Source: Maribacter sp. 4G9 (lineage in GTDB: Bacteria; Bacteroidota; Bacteroidia; Flavobacteriales; Flavobacteriaceae). Taken from it: DNA of 64,000 bases. The position numbers and the translations under genes are program-made. Below are positions 23,466 to 30,255 of the stretch, piece after piece. The notes beneath the pieces were generated by a model. That model saw nothing but the letters and a program-made list of their open reading frames with translations. It ran no database searches and was not told where the DNA came from. Position 1 is the first letter of the stretch, and each line of letters starts with the position of its first letter. The DNA lies in assembly GCF_002742265.1 (NCBI RefSeq), contig NZ_MDGL01000149.1:124001-188000 (forward strand), written 5' to 3'.

Positions 23466-26400
23466 CTACTTCGGATTTAAAGCCCCAATACCCGCTTCCC
23501 AAAGTGCTTTGTTATATGCCGGAATATCGGTATTGAACAAGGCTTCGCCCCTAGCTTTTAATGGTATCCATTGCTGGTCCAATTCCTGCTTCCTGTCCAA
23601 ATTCGACTTGTTTACCCGTGGAATACTACCACTGGTCTGGTTCAACAAGAACAGATATTCCGCCGTAAACTTGTTGGGGAAATTCTCCACATCGTCATAG
23701 GCCTGAGATTTACGCTGTACCATATCGGCGTCCCACACCTTCATTTTTTCCAAAAGAGCTTCACCTTTTGATTTTAAAGCTTCATCGTCCAAATCCGTCA
23801 ATACTGCTTTCAATTTGTTTTGGACCTTGAAAAGGGAATTGACCATGGTATGCATTTCCGTTATTTTTTGCTCCATGTCAGTCATAAAAGCGTCATACTC
23901 CTCAAATTGTCCCGGTTTCATTTCAATGGTAGGTATAGCTTTGATCTCTCCTTTGGTACTCACCATTTCATCGTCAACTTTAAGCGCAATGGTATATGTT
24001 CCAGGAATTGCATCATGACCTCTAAAATTTGCCTCAATATACACACCTGGAATGCCAGGTACAATGGTATGGCCCATATCCCACACAAAACGGTTCAAAC
24101 CTTCATTTTTGGGCAATACAGGTGACGGAGGTGCTCCCCCACCGTTATGTGGTATATAGTCTTTGTCTTTTTCCGAACTAAAACTCCGTATTAATTTCCC
24201 TTTTGAATCCCTGATTTCCATGGAAATCTTGGTGGAATCCTTCAATTTTGGCAATTCATAATACAGCACCATACCTTTCGCCGGATTGACCCCGTCAAAG
24301 GCATCTGTAGCAGTAAGCTCCTTGGAATTACTGCTCATGGGGCTTCCCCAAGAACCGGCGTAGGCCGCACTTGGCTTCAATAATTTCAACCCCTTTTTGG
24401 CTGGTTCATACTGGCTAATGGCATTGATATTGTCCAAAATCCAGAAAGATCGGCCCGAGGTAGCCACAATTAGATCCCCTCTATGGACCTTTAAATCCAA
24501 CACAGGGGTTACCGGTAAATTCAACTGAAAAGGCTCCCATGCTTTGCCACCGTTCCAAGAAATGTACATACCGAGTTCCGTACCCGCATACAATAAATCT
24601 TTCTTATTTTCATCTTCCCGAACCACTCTTGTAAAGGCCCCGTAAGGGATACCAGCACTGATATTGGTCCAGGTTTTCCCATAATCCGTTGTTTTGTAAA
24701 GGGCCGGTGTGTAGTCGTTGAACTTGTATCGGGTGGTGGCGATATAGGCAGTTGCAGGGTCGTGAGGTGATACCTCTATAGCATTGATCAAGCATTCGCT
24801 CAGTCCCTTTGGGGTTACATTTTCCCAGGTTTCACCACCATTTTTGGTAATATGTACAAGACCATCATCGCTCCCGGTCCAAAAAACACCTTTTTCGTGC
24901 GGGGATTCTATCAAATAGGCCAAGGTTCCGTAGTTTTCTGCCCCAACAGCTTCATTGGTGTAAGGTCCGCCACCGTTTCCTTGCTTTGCATCGATATCTC
25001 TTGTCAAATCCGGGGAAATCTCCTCCCAACTAACACCCATGTCGCGGGTTCTCAGCACCAATTGTGCGCCATGGTAGTACGTTCCCGGTTCGTGGATGGA
25101 ACCTATGATCGGGGCATTCCAGTTGTACAGATATTTCATGTTCCTGGCTTCCCTTCCCAAATACTGTATGGGGGCCGCCATAATGTTGGTAGAACTTTTA
25201 GTTTCCGTATCAAGCACTTCGATAGTTCCCAAATAACTTCCGCCCAATACATACCTTGGATTATCTGGGTCAAAGGCCAAAAAGGCACTTTCACCACCGG
25301 CAGAATAGGTCCAGTCCTCCTTCGTTATACCGCCCCTTCCCAAGGATAAGCTGGCGATTCGAACCGAAGTGTTGTCCTGCTGACCGCCATAAATATTGTA
25401 TGGAAACAGGTTGTCAACACTTATTCTATAAAACTGTGCCGTTGGCATATTATCCTGCGCCGACCAAGTTTCTCCATAATCAAAGGTAATGGTAGCGCCT
25501 CCGTCATCGGCCATCACCATGTTTTTGGAATTATCCGGGTTTATCCACAAATCGTGTGTATCCCCATGCGGTACATCAATGGTTTCCCAAGTCTTCCCGC
25601 CGTCTTCGGAACGGAACATATTGGCGCTTAGCACATAGACGGTATCCTCATCATTTGGGTCGGTAAAAACCTCAATATAGTACCAAGCCCGCTGTACCAA
25701 TCTGTTGTCTCCGCTCACCATGGTCCAGGATTCCCCCGCATCGTTGGATACGAAAAGTCCCCCTTTGTCCGCATTGGAATCACTTTCTATCAATGCGTAC
25801 ACTTTATTTGAATTAACAGGGCTTACCGATATGGCCATTTTTCCTTTTTCCTCTGGAAGACCCTCATGGATTTTTTTCCATGTCTCTCCGGCATCGGTGG
25901 ATTTGTACAGGCCACTTCCTTCCCCGCCACTGATTACAATATTCGGTTTTCTCTGATGCTCCCACATGGCAGCATACATAATTTCAGGATAGTTGGCATC
26001 CATAGAAAGTTCTACCGCACCGGTCAAATTATTTACGAACAAGGTGTTCTTCCAAGTCTTGCCTCCATCAACGGATTTGTAGATACCTCTTTCGGGATTG
26101 CCTTCAAAAAGTGCTCCTTGGGCAGCTACATAAACAATATCGGGATTTGTTGGGTGAATGATGATCCTGGAAATATGCTGGGTCTTTTCCAATCCTAAAT
26201 GTTGCCATGTCTTCCCTGCATCGGTGGACTTATATACCCCATCACCGTAAGACGTCATCACTCCTCTGGGGGCATGCTCGCCCATGCCGCAGTATAGAAT
26301 GTTGGGATTCGATTTTGATACCGCTATGGCTCCTACGGAACCGGTTTTGAAATATCCGTCGGATATATTTACCCATTTCTGACCGGCGGTCTCGGTCTTC

Positions 26401-26594
26401 CAAAGTCCGCCTCCAGTTGTACCCATATAATAGGTCATGGGATCATTCACCACGCCGGAGGCCGTAACCGAACGCCCACCTCTAAAAGGTCCTATATTGC
26501 GGTATTTCATGGGTTTGAAATACTCATTTGCCGATTGGGCAAAAGTGGCACTGCACGCGAGCAGCGTCAATAATACTAGATATTTGCTTTTCAT
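23466..26594 (-). CDS. Secreted BNR/VPS10-like repeat protein (paralog 1)
   Basis: This 1042-residue protein has a signal peptide ([20 protein letters not shown]) and a large region of sialidase-type Asp-box repeats (S-x-D-x-G-x-T-W, such as [10 protein letters not shown] and [10 protein letters not shown]), which form beta-propellers like those of VPS10/sortilin and GH74 proteins. The C-terminal 250 residues add a beta domain and a helical stretch. No catalytic residues can be assigned, so the glycosyl hydrolase label often given to such proteins is not secure. No T9SS tail is present. It is a close paralog of the gene at 27118, from which it is separated by the REP-bracketed GIY-YIG unit. 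Confidence 0.88.
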
Positions 26595-26670: not shown

Positions 26671-26696
26671 CTTCTCGACTCCGCTCGAAGTGACAG
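26671..26696. repeat. REP-like palindromic unit, left
   Basis: CTTCTCGACTCCGCTCGAAG plus TGACAG. The core TCGA-CTCCGC-TCGA can form a short stem. It matches the unit at 27081-27106 at 25 of 26 positions in the same orientation and lies 12 bases beyond the GIY-YIG stop codon. Confidence 0.85.
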
Positions 26697-26707
26697 TTGT
26701 AGTTCAG

Positions 26708-27019
26708 TTAGTCCTTATTCTTAAAATTGGTTTCATTTTTACATACTGAGAATAACCTTAATAAATCATAGTCCCCATTTGCTAATGCCATTTTCTTCGC
26801 CCTACTCCATTTCTTTATTCTCTTTTCAAATTTTTCCGCTTGTTCAAATTGCATAAATTCTTGATGCCATATGATAACAACAGGTCGGCGTCTAGAAGTG
26901 TATGAATTATCGTTCAAACCGTAGTTGTGTTCTCTTGTTCGTCTTTCTAAATCATTGGTTAAACCTATGTAAATGCTTTGATCAGCACATTGCGCCATAT
27001 AAACATAATAATATCGCAT
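26708..27019 (-). CDS. GIY-YIG nuclease superfamily protein
   Basis: This 103-residue protein is a complete single-domain GIY-YIG nuclease: YVYMAQC and SIYIGLT supply the two tyrosine motifs (residues 5-21), the catalytic arginine is in DLERRTREHN (about 23-32) and the metal-binding glutamate is in EKFEKRIKKW (about 62-71). Relatives resemble YhbQ and the UvrC/SLX1 catalytic domain; their cellular roles are mostly unknown. The gene is bracketed by near-identical REP-like palindromes 12 bases beyond its stop and 24 bases before its start. No other domain is fused to it. Confidence 0.9.
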   Translation of the reverse strand: MRYYYVYMAQCADQSIYIGLTNDLERRTREHNYGLNDNSYTSRRRPVVIIWHQEFMQFEQAEKFEKRIKKWSRAKKMALANGDYDLLRLFSVCKNETNFKNKD

Positions 27020-27042
27020 TTAACCTATTTAAAACTAAAAGA

Positions 27043-27106
27043 CTGTCAGGTCGAGCGTAGTCGAGACCCATGTTCCGGGGCTTCTCGACTCCGCTCGAAG
27101 AGACAG
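27043..27106. repeat. REP-like doublet forming a long imperfect hairpin
   Basis: Two units face each other: CTGTCAGGTCGAGCGTAGTC at the start (27043-27066) and its near inverse complement at 27081-27106 (CTTCTCGACTCCGCTCGAAG plus AGACAG). The central 15 bases of each arm pair with one mismatch and the CTGTC/GACAG ends also pair. The doublet lies just upstream of the GIY-YIG gene and 11 bases past the stop of the next gene. Confidence 0.88.
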
Positions 27107-27117
27107 GTGCCTTTTAT

Positions 27118-30100
27118 TTAGTCCTCTAAAAACAAATAATTCAATTTTAAGTCATTGAAAGCGGCATTGAACGCTTTGAGCTCATCAGACATCACCGCAT
27201 CAAACTTGTCCAATTCCTTGTTGATAGCAGCTGTGAGCTCATTCTTAACGGCAATGTCCTGTTCCGTGGGAGGAAAGTCGTCAATGGCGACCAGACTGTT
27301 CAAATGTCCCAATTTGTTGGTCAACTTAATGGGGAAATTCAATGGATCTTGCCTACTCCTATTCTTGGTCTGGTACAAAGCCTTCTCGACCTCGCCCAAG
27401 CTTTCCTTCATTTTTTTGGCCTTTTCGATAAGCTCTTTGGTAGACTCGTTATCCGCATATTGCTTGCTAAAAGCATCCAACTGTGCGGTGACATTCCTAA
27501 TCTTTTCTATGGATTTATGGGCCTTATCTATGGTCGTGTTGATATCGGTAATAAAATCATATTGCTTTTGCATATCGGCCACCGATGCCTCGGCTCTTGG
27601 GTCTGGAACTATCTTGAAATCCTGCGTGCTAGTTGAACCGTTTACGTTCAAATGAACCTTGTAGTTTCCGGGAACCGCCTTGGGACCATCCAAATTGGCC
27701 CACCAGAGTATCATGCCGTCCAATAATTTGGCTCCTTTGCCCCGAGTGTCCCAAACAAAGGTATTGCCCCCCTTTTTTACCTCTAGTTTTTGGTCCTTTT
27801 CCTTCGTAAAGTTATTATAGGTGGCCAAGGTATCCCCGGCCATGGAGGTATAGGTTAGATGTACACTATCCTTTTCGCTGAGATTCTTTAAATAAAAATG
27901 AGTCACCACACCGTTAGGGTGGTTTTGTCCCGACGTCTTGGAAGGTCTGCTAGATGCCCTCCCTTTAGTACGATAGGAATCTTTTGGCTTGTAAAGAATT
28001 TGTTCAGAGGATTTTTTACCTTCCTCCAATTGATGCAATACGGTTAGATCATCGATCATCCAAAGACTTCTCCCTTGGGTGGCCACGATTAGATTATCGT
28101 CCTTGATGGTCAAATCCGTAATGGGCACAATTGGTAGGTTCATTTGGAAGGAATTCCAGTTGGCACCATCATCAAAGGAAATATACATTCCTGTTTCCGT
28201 TCCTGCATATAACAACCCTTTTCTTTTGGGGTCTTCCCGAACCACCCGGGTAAAATGTTCTTCATTTATCCCATTGGTAATTTTAGTCCAAGTCTGGCCA
28301 TAATCCGTTGTTTTATATAAATAGGGCTGGAAATCACCCAGTTTATAACGGGTTGCTGCTACATAACAAGTACCCTCATCAAAAGCGGAAGGTTCAATGC
28401 TATTGATCATGTTCCACTCCGGCATATTGGATGGGGTAACATTTTCCCAAGTTTCGCCCCCGTTCTTAGAAATGTGGATCAGTCCGTCATCGCTACCCAC
28501 CCAAAGCAAGCCTTCCTTTAACGGACTTTCATTGGCGGTAAAGATGGTACAGTAGTATTCAACACTTGTATTATCTTGGGTAATGGGCCCACCACTAGAA
28601 CCTAACTTGGTAGGGTCGTTTCTGGTAAGATCCCCACTCAACACCTCCCAACTCTGACCTTCATTGGTGGTCATGTGCACTTGATTGGAAAAGGTGTATA
28701 ATTTGTTGGGGTTATGCCTACTGAATAAAATTGGGAAATTCCACTGAAAACGATATTTCATTGCCTCGGCACCAGCACCCATGGGGTTGTCGGGCCATAC
28801 GTTGATGCCCCTAACGGTACCTTTTTCATGGTTCACGCGGGTAAGGAAGCCATCGTAACTACCACCGTAAACGATATCATCATTCTCCGGGTCTACGGCG
28901 ATCCAAGCGGATTCCCCTCCTGCGGTTTCCTCCCAATCGTCCTCCGTGATGGCGGAACCATCGCTTCTGTGATTGACACGAAGTGTGGAATTATCCTGTT
29001 GCGCCACATAAATTCGGTATGGAAAATGATTGTCCGTAGTCACCCTGTAGTACTGTGCCGTAGGTTGGTTGTAATAGGTACTCCAGGTCTCCCCGCCGTC
29101 ATAGGAAATTTGCGCACCCCCGTCATCACCAATGATCATTCGCTGACCGTTCTCAGGCGATATCCAAAGATCATGATGGTCGCCATGCGGGGCGTTAAAG
29201 GACTTAAAAGTCTTACCTCCGTCCATGGATTTGTGATAGCTTACGTTCAAAACATAGACGACATCGGCATCCTGGGTATCTGCATACACACGGGTATAAT
29301 ACCATGCCCTTTGTCTCAAATTACGATCACTATTGACCAAGGACCATTTTTTACCACCGTCTTCGGAACGATACAAACCGCCCTTTTCCTTATTTTCGAC
29401 AATGGCCCAAACCCTCTCCGAATTCTTGGGTGATACAGCTACCCCTATGATTCCCAAGGTATCTTGTGGAAAACCTTCGTTCTTGGATATCTCAGTCCAC
29501 GTTTCACCACTGTCCGTACTTTTCCAAAGAGCGGAACCTTCCCCTCCACTGCTTAAACTGTATGGGGTTCTTTGGGCTCTCCAAGTGGAAGCATACAAAA
29601 TCCTTGGGTTGTTTGGATCAAAGGTCAAATCGACCGCACCCGCCTGTTCGTTTACGAAAAGGACTTGTTTCCAGGAGGCACCACCATCGGTACTTTTATA
29701 GATACCTCTTTCTTTTGTCGGCTTATAAATATCTCCCAATACCGCTGCGTATACGGTGTTATAATCGGTTGGATGCACCCTTATTCTTGGTACATGCCTG
29801 CTTTTTTCCAAACCGGCCTTTTCCCAAGTTTTACCGCCATTTACGGTTTTCCAAATGCCATACCCTGAAGAAACGTTACCTCTTAGGGTCTTTTCGCCAC
29901 CGCCCACATAGATTACATTCGGGTCGCTTTTCGCCACCTCCACTGCACCGATACTTCCACCAAAATAACCATCGGATATGTTTTCCCAGGTACGGCCGCC
30001 ATCCAAGGTCTTCCAGACTCCGCCACCGGTAGCCCCAAAATAAAATAGATTGGGCTCTCCCGGCACGCCTGTGACCGCAGCCGATCTTCCCCCACGATAA

Positions 30101-30255
30101 GGACCTATGCTACGATATTCAAGGCTGGAATACAATTCCTGCGGATATGAAACTTCAACACTTTTTGATTTGTTTCTACGCTGTCCTTCCGTTGTAATGG
30201 GCAGCAATAATAGGAAAAGGGCCATGAGGCCCGTAAAGGAGTAATTGGATTTCAT
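27118..30255 (-). CDS. Secreted BNR/VPS10-like repeat protein (paralog 2)
   Basis: This 1045-residue protein has a signal peptide (about residues 1-24, ending TEGQ) and the same layout as the gene at 23466: YRSIGPYRGGRSAAVTGV at the start of the propeller, many Asp-box repeats (KSTDGGASWK, KTVNGGKTWE), conserved WVGSDDGLIHISKNGG near 590 and a helical C-terminal part. The two clearly arose by tandem duplication. The polar, repeat-rich ectodomain suggests ligand or glycan binding at the cell surface, but no activity can be assigned. Confidence 0.88.
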   Translation of the reverse strand: MKSNYSFTGLMALFLLLLPITTEGQRRNKSKSVEVSYPQELYSSLEYRSIGPYRGGRSAAVTGVPGEPNLFYFGATGGGVWKTLDGGRTWENISDGYFGGSIGAVEVAKSDPNVIYVGGGEKTLRGNVSSGYGIWKTVNGGKTWEKAGLEKSRHVPRIRVHPTDYNTVYAAVLGDIYKPTKERGIYKSTDGGASWKQVLFVNEQAGAVDLTFDPNNPRILYASTWRAQRTPYSLSSGGEGSALWKSTDSGETWTEISKNEGFPQDTLGIIGVAVSPKNSERVWAIVENKEKGGLYRSEDGGKKWSLVNSDRNLRQRAWYYTRVYADTQDADVVYVLNVSYHKSMDGGKTFKSFNAPHGDHHDLWISPENGQRMIIGDDGGAQISYDGGETWSTYYNQPTAQYYRVTTDNHFPYRIYVAQQDNSTLRVNHRSDGSAITEDDWEETAGGESAWIAVDPENDDIVYGGSYDGFLTRVNHEKGTVRGINVWPDNPMGAGAEAMKYRFQWNFPILFSRHNPNKLYTFSNQVHMTTNEGQSWEVLSGDLTRNDPTKLGSSGGPITQDNTSVEYYCTIFTANESPLKEGLLWVGSDDGLIHISKNGGETWENVTPSNMPEWNMINSIEPSAFDEGTCYVAATRYKLGDFQPYLYKTTDYGQTWTKITNGINEEHFTRVVREDPKRKGLLYAGTETGMYISFDDGANWNSFQMNLPIVPITDLTIKDDNLIVATQGRSLWMIDDLTVLHQLEEGKKSSEQILYKPKDSYRTKGRASSRPSKTSGQNHPNGVVTHFYLKNLSEKDSVHLTYTSMAGDTLATYNNFTKEKDQKLEVKKGGNTFVWDTRGKGAKLLDGMILWWANLDGPKAVPGNYKVHLNVNGSTSTQDFKIVPDPRAEASVADMQKQYDFITDINTTIDKAHKSIEKIRNVTAQLDAFSKQYADNESTKELIEKAKKMKESLGEVEKALYQTKNRSRQDPLNFPIKLTNKLGHLNSLVAIDDFPPTEQDIAVKNELTAAINKELDKFDAVMSDELKAFNAAFNDLKLNYLFLED

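Follow-up and report, generated by a model that had tools for sequence, protein, structure and literature searches.

A predicted GIY-YIG nuclease gene associated with CGTC/TGTC-tagged REP palindromes in Maribacter sp. 4G9 and other bacteria

What relates a small GIY-YIG gene to the palindromes that bracket it? The question is raised by a 64-kb stretch of DNA from Maribacter sp. 4G9 (the window), which belongs to a 4.6-Mb draft genome of 196 contigs. Repetitive extragenic palindromes (REPs) are among the commonest small repeats of bacterial genomes. The GTAG superfamily of REPs has a known partner enzyme, whereas the CGTC/TGTC superfamily was reported without one in 2013; Di Nocera et al. stated that these REPs 'apparently lack a dedicated transposase' and reported them in Alphaproteobacteria, Bacteroidetes and other groups, with Gramella forsetii among the carriers (PMC3733652).

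The window locus and its predicted nuclease

The sequence-only reading of the window had described a 103-residue GIY-YIG gene with a palindromic unit behind it, an inverted doublet in front of it and tandem paralogs on both sides, and the sequence confirmed this layout (Table 1). The unit at 26671-26695 starts 12 bases past the stop codon, the doublet (27044-27068 and 27081-27105) lies 24 bases ahead of the start codon, and the outer two units agree at all but 1 of 26 positions. The paralogs are two Sortilin/BNR-repeat proteins with 51% identity in the part that aligned with the N-terminal 300 residues. The tag of the downstream unit, TGACA at 26691-26695, is directed at the gene; the proximal half of the doublet carries TGTCA at 27044-27048, and the distal half carries AGACA, so that the strict pattern defined below misses it. 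With at most two mismatches, the core TCGACTCCGCTCGA occurs three times in the window, every time at the GIY-YIG locus; in 100 shuffles of the window the mean was 0.14 copies and none reached three.

Table 1. Features of the GIY-YIG locus (positions within the window)
Feature	Position	Strand	Basis
GIY-YIG nuclease gene (predicted), single-domain, 103 aa	26708..27019	-	ORF list, PF01541 match
REP unit 3' of gene	26671..26695	+	sequence, pattern CGAC-NNN-GCTC-N4-TGACA
REP unit 5' of gene, proximal half of inverted doublet	27044..27068	-	sequence, pattern match
REP unit, distal half of inverted doublet	27081..27105	+	sequence, core match with 0 mismatches
Sortilin/BNR-repeat paralog, 1042 aa, context only	23466..26594	-	ORF list, domain match
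Sortilin/BNR-repeat paralog, 1045 aa, context only	27118..30255	-	ORF list, domain match

The window protein matched PF01541 with an E-value of 7.2e-18 and 65.1 bits, above the curated cut-off of 22.6. Y17, G19, R27, H31 and E65 were invariant in this protein and 25 relatives, and we take Y17, R27 and E65 to be the catalytic Tyr, Arg and Glu of the GIY-YIG active site. With both the domain and the active-site positions conserved, the gene is predicted to encode a nuclease of the GIY-YIG superfamily. By sequence profile its solved relatives were two, BH0048 (1zg2) and EF2693 (1ywl). When its AlphaFold2 model (mean pLDDT 88.9) was used in a fold search, BH0048, a small UPF0213 protein, came first (E 8e-5), followed by several Slx1 or Slx1-Slx4 chains (E 1e-3 to 2e-2), including complexes with branched DNA. 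Between the window gene and its copy in G150, the closest congener, there were nine nonsynonymous and seven synonymous differences (pN 0.035, pS 0.128); on these few changes, pN below pS points in the direction of purifying selection. The protein of a second GIY-YIG gene of the same genome (L015) has a C-terminus two residues shorter than that of the window protein at the aligned place.

Generalized by eye from its copies, the palindromic unit reads CGAC-N2/3-GCTC-N4-TGACA (the strict pattern). It matched 17 times in the own genome, where the reversed control matched 0 times, and in 87 of 149 host-family genomes, with 0 matches of the reversed control in every genome. Five of the 17 own-genome units flank the two REP-bearing GIY-YIG genes and the rest are scattered. 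Many dispersed intergenic copies lie far from any GIY-YIG gene, some of them in inverted head-to-head pairs (for example C185:75917/75963); REPs are likewise scattered away from RAYT genes in REP/RAYT systems.

The window unit has four covarying pairs around TCGAC-N3-GCTC. Among 92 distinct units, the four bases before TCGAC and the N4 stretch formed a mean of 3.78 of 4 pairs (four pairs in 76 units, three in 12 and two in 4), compared with a mean of 1.61 and a maximum of 1.98 in 1000 shuffles of the partners, and 20 of the 32 distinct arm quartet pairs were fully complementary. Because the arms covary, the symmetry is maintained as the sequence changes, which fits a hairpin, a cruciform or a duplex-DNA dimer site alike. 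As single-stranded DNA, single window units were poor hairpins (-1.1 and -1.5 kcal/mol, z about +1.4), so recognition as a hairpin is doubtful for this REP type; the inverted doublet folded strongly (-20.7 kcal/mol, z -5.1).

Tagged repeats around GIY-YIG genes of the host family

We assembled 95 small GIY-YIG genes of the host family, namely the three own genes and the 92 best-listed matches (30 with loci and the next 62 of the list, leaving out two long-ORF rows and taking G087 out of order together with its neighbour). A strict unit lay within 350 bp of 24 of the 95. REP density was 2.2 per kb at 0-100 bp from the genes and 0.011 per kb at both 500-1000 bp and 1000-1500 bp, an approximately 200-fold difference and the enrichment close to GIY-YIG genes that the sequence-only reading had proposed to look for. 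The REP label changed 7 times on the protein tree, as against a mean of 21.8 in shuffles, of which 0 of 500 were as low. A supported clade of 19 genes (97/88) held 18 REP-labelled genes, including the window gene; its nineteenth, L077, has degenerate units by eye. These 19 genes occupy only six gene neighbourhoods by single linkage, so the gene itself rarely moves between sites.

Units stood on both sides of 15 genes. The median distance from gene to unit was 28 bp upstream and 11 bp downstream. Of the nearest units, 14 of 20 upstream and 17 of 19 downstream have an outward-directed tag; contrary to most of these loci, the window units that adjoin the gene point inwards. Degenerate-arm or long-loop units also flank L077, L061 and L104, which the strict pattern scores as REP-free. 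Since the strict pattern overlooks such units, strict counts are lower bounds. A scan for perfect hairpins near the three own GIY-YIG genes missed the imperfect palindromes.

A pattern-free test sought a near-exact repeat common to both 250-bp flanks, with a cut-off of 14 that was picked after the 80-locus result below had been viewed and was set beforehand only in the phylum replicate. By any evidence, 66 of the 95 family genes had a flank repeat, compared with 3 of 285 random intervals. Broken down by group, the counts were 27 of 30 for REP-group genes, 6 of 10 in the neighbouring group, 24 of 42 in the largest of the others and 9 of 13 in the last group. Many common segments in the group of 42 resemble other tagged REPs, such as GTCATTGCGAGG, GTCATCCTGAAC and GTCATTCCTGCG; GTCA/TGAC lay inside the common segment in 15 of 24 cases in this group and in 4 of 9 in the last.

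The last group is different: this clade of 13 genes, which contains the third own gene, L014 (C7:141844-142053), had no strict REP; therefore, not every small GIY-YIG gene belongs to the REP system. ARAGORN found a tRNA gene in 10 of 12 loci of this clade and its direct repeats resemble tRNA pieces in part, and it is possibly another mobile GIY-YIG type. The GIY-YIG genes that adjoin tRNA genes are L014, L044, L058, L070, L087, L096, L099, L103, L106 and L131. Tandem GIY-YIG copies occur in G143 (C1:1005437-1006329, three at 337-bp steps) and also in G108, G069, G073, G027 and G246.

At the level of whole genomes, a profile of 25 proteins, most of them picked for their REPs, gave 73 matches in 49 of the 149 host-family genomes. 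The median number of strict REPs was 11 in these 49 (4 with none), compared with 0 in the remaining 100 (58 with none; Fisher P 1.6e-9). As 22 of the 149 genomes had supplied the profile, this comparison is partly circular and was rerun without them: the remaining 27 genomes had a median of 7 REPs (3 without any) versus 0 in the same 100 (P 3e-7). Without the profile genomes, the Spearman correlation with REP load was 0.45 for the GIY-YIG type and 0.15 (P 0.10) for HUH transposases. REP load thus tracks this GIY-YIG type, and HUH transposases weakly or not at all. Seventeen of the 149 genomes had at least five REPs and no match to the GIY-YIG type, and could have lost the gene, carry other variants or be incomplete assemblies.

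Sites, lineages and hosts

Among 36 genomes of the window genus, we read 30 neighbouring-paralog loci. The GIY-YIG gene with REPs stood at the paralog site in two, those of the own genome and G150, and 26 of the 30 showed the site without the gene. Of the 24 loci scored by script, two had gene and REP, ten had a TGTC-tagged REP-like unit only and twelve had neither; among the six unscored, four showed by eye the paralog end and no gene, and two were uninformative. G157 and G164 carry a single unit at the site. Upstream of window position 26594, the spot between the paralogs has REP-like units in congeners without the gene (L226, L229, L230, L232, L234, L235, L237 and L239-L242), and it looks like a REP hotspot. 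In G032, from another genus, the gene for the window protein's closest relative comes right after the same paralog, with another ORF next.

A comparable site was found in Sphingobium, where in four aligned isolates a REP-gene-REP arrangement separates fnrL from a response regulator. Four isolates lack the gene; two of them show, at precisely this place, one REP with a tag at either end, and two have none. In Sphingobium sp. TomTYG73 (L259), the GIY-YIG copy is unannotated and has a one-base gap relative to the other filled copies. In sister genomes, the single REP may have preceded the gene or been left behind by a deletion. The empty sites expected of a mobile unit were therefore found in both genera and, together with the REP enrichment, strongly support the compact REP-plus-nuclease unit proposed from sequence alone. 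That proposal had taken scattered REPs, along with a gene conserved in place in all relatives, as signs against it; most own-genome REPs are indeed scattered, but the gene is missing at the site in nearly all congeners read.

We compared flank similarity with protein identity in 4409 pairs of genes from different genomes and obtained a Spearman correlation of 0.24, with 0 of 500 Mantel permutations as high. The flank cut-off was reached by about 1% of pairs below 30% identity and by 70% at 60-80% identity. Vertical inheritance of one locus was rejected as the cause of repeat sharing, because non-syntenic pairs alone still share: 78 of 128 had a flank repeat in common at 60% identity or more, and 13 of 1073 below 30%. 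GIY-YIG genes of different lineages in one genome shared a flank repeat in 0 of 25 comparisons; of the own genes, the window gene is paired with a 3-base-loop unit and L015 with a 2-base-loop unit. A score of 36 of 37 (one tie) sets the best of many against the best of few, so we relied on the fractions instead. As far as sequences can tell, these results show that repeat type follows protein lineage and not host genome.

Outside the family, a tblastn search of plasmid records with the L015 protein returned 38 records, of which 12 were examined. On inspection by eye, the gene stands between tagged or similar palindromes in L132-L134, L136-L139, L141 and L142, from Sphingobium, Rhizobium, Sinorhizobium, Methylobacterium, one Sphingomonas and Planktothrix; none were seen by eye in L135, L140 and L143. 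The alphaproteobacterial flanks match, again by eye, the geometry of CGTC-tagged REPs, an 8-9 bp stem with a 4-5 bp loop and a CCA tail. The Sinorhizobium "plasmid" records L137 and L138, at 3.5-3.7 Mb, are chromosome-sized and their label may be wrong; in L138, hflX and mazG lie beside the GIY-YIG gene.

A profile from six plasmid-record proteins yielded 80 named loci chosen by protein similarity alone. The flank repeat was inverted in 55 of the 80, direct in 39 and present in either orientation in 67, and 0 of 240 control intervals reached the cut-off in either orientation. GTCA/TGAC lay within the common segment of 59 of the 67, compared with a mean of 19.9 and at most 31 in letter shuffles. 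The 67 include Alphaproteobacteria (in Mesorhizobium the near-identical flank arms reach ~69 bp) and a Massilia, as well as bins labelled gamma- and deltaproteobacteria, Omnitrophota, Uhrbacteria, Parcubacteria and Bacteroidetes, and the 13 negatives include bins labelled Berkelbacteria, Sedimentisphaerales and Ignavibacteriales; several of the 80 loci come from metagenome bins, whose taxon label may be wrong. A replicate in the host phylum, with the cut-off preset, used 30 loci from 74 matching genomes among 148 drawn and was positive at 21 of 30 loci, compared with 0 of 90 control intervals. The flank-repeat tests found nothing at 13 of the 80 named, 9 of the 30 phylum and 29 of the 95 family genes. 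Chance and general repeat density were ruled out as causes by the shuffles, the reversed pattern, the control intervals and the distance profile. Taken together, gene and repeat are associated, and paired as cognates, in many bacteria.

Proposed system, rival explanations and known systems

With moderate confidence, we read the window gene as a REP-associated GIY-YIG nuclease and the palindromes as its cognate CGTC/TGTC-tagged REPs, the mechanism being inferred. The best reading by analogy is a REP-nuclease system that would work like REP/RAYT with an unrelated enzyme, and the small GIY-YIG enzyme is likely the partner that maintains or spreads these repeats. The nuclease would bind the tagged palindrome, whether this forms a cruciform, a folded doublet or a duplex-DNA dimer site, and would cut at the TGTC tag or close to it; when the host repairs the break, a REP, or REP-gene-REP, may be copied into the cut place. 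Spread would then amount to homing-like gene conversion between REP sites with occasional ectopic copies, and solo REPs and inverted doublets would be non-autonomous derivatives. Because enzymes of the GIY-YIG kind hydrolyse DNA and leave the ends unjoined, the proposed spread would resemble homing and not the covalent cut-and-rejoin of the RAYT type; this would accord with six neighbourhoods for 19 genes and with many more REPs than genes. We lean, by a narrow measure, towards the broader view that single-domain GIY-YIG proteins are the missing dedicated enzymes of CGTC/TGTC REPs across Bacteria, using hydrolysis and host repair as a second, independent solution to the REP/RAYT problem.

The nuclease might instead be a structure-specific repair enzyme that resolves cruciforms or REP doublets, much as Slx1 acts on branched DNA, with REPs tolerated near its gene and no selfish spread. 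Slx1 and Slx1-Slx4 among the next-best fold matches, the strong fold of the inverted doublet and the own gene's pN below pS all suit this explanation, which we nevertheless regard as unlikely, since it leaves unexplained both two-sided repeats that differ by protein lineage and the fact that only some congeners carry the gene at a given site. That patchiness is what a freestanding homing endonuclease would produce if the gene were selfish, the REP-bearing site its target and the other REPs either by-products or repeats of the host that are older. Homing endonucleases with the GIY-YIG fold are known, and the same site is occupied in two genera (the window gene and G032), is without the gene at most congener loci and is one of few neighbourhoods of the core clade; however, REP load rises with the gene, which pure homing does not require, and many REP copies are distant from any GIY-YIG gene, so that we give this account rather little credence.

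A regulatory role is also conceivable, with the palindromes acting as terminators or as RNA hairpins, either to control the GIY-YIG gene or as substrates for cleavage at the RNA level. Units near both gene ends, at the median distances given above, and covarying arms would be expected of such elements, but the identical unit type is scattered through the genome and the flank repeats are often far longer than a terminator, as the Mesorhizobium arms illustrate, which makes this role improbable. HUH (RAYT-type) transposases, finally, might move the REPs with the GIY-YIG gene as a passenger. They are known REP movers, as described in the accessible part of PMC8266576, and their Y1 genes occur in 59 of the 149 family genomes, including the own genome; yet the REP median was 0 in genomes with HUH and without the GIY-YIG type versus 10.5 in the reverse case, and only 1 of 30 Y1 loci had a strict unit nearby. 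These counts contradict RAYT/HUH as the mover of these units, and in the host family the passenger explanation is close to refuted.

In the open-access literature, covered by titles and abstracts, we found no paper linking GIY-YIG to REPs; the single joint match for GIY-YIG and repetitive extragenic palindromes combined a Moraxella pangenome table with an unrelated reference. The word GIY occurs 0 times in the main text of PMC3733652, and the terms tried gave no match to GIY or nuclease in the main texts of PMC12306157, PMC5896051, PMC2817692 and PMC5082802. The accessible parts of PMC6006769 and PMC8266576 cover HUH enzymes and GTAG REPs. If the proposed system is real, a function would be assigned to the many genes whose sole annotation is 'GIY-YIG nuclease family protein' or 'excinuclease ABC subunit C', two unrelated nuclease folds would have reached the same arrangement of tag, palindrome and gene, and REP families kept by a hydrolytic nuclease and host repair may occur in many phyla.

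Among known proteins, UPF0213/COG2827 members such as BH0048 and EF2693 share the single domain of ~95-105 residues and the fold; we know of no link between these two and REPs. GIY-YIG homing endonucleases have the same catalytic fold and a patchy same-site distribution, and Slx1 has the catalytic fold and is among the nearest solved folds. Unlike either, the window gene comes without an intron or an attached DNA-binding domain and is flanked by multi-copy tagged palindromes. The repeats resemble the CGTC-tagged REP superfamily, compared by its description in the accessible text and not by consensus, in a CGTC/TGTC tag outside a palindrome of similar size and in dispersed intergenic copies and head-to-head dimers (PMC3733652). 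The closest parallel in organization is REP/RAYT (TnpA-REP, REPtron): in both, tagged and often inverted palindromes stand on either side of a small nuclease gene, many further copies occur alone at other places, the repeat type is coupled to the enzyme lineage and the tag is just outside the palindrome. The tag is GTAG in REP/RAYT and TGTC/CGTC here (TGTCA/TGACA in the window type), the palindromes differ, the enzyme is an HUH Y1 tyrosine transposase there and a predicted GIY-YIG hydrolase here, and HUH genes do not track these REPs. On a stricter view this would be a variant of the REP-nuclease kind, both parts of which were already known separately; because it departs from REP/RAYT in two defining features, the enzyme and the tag, we regard the proposed system as new.
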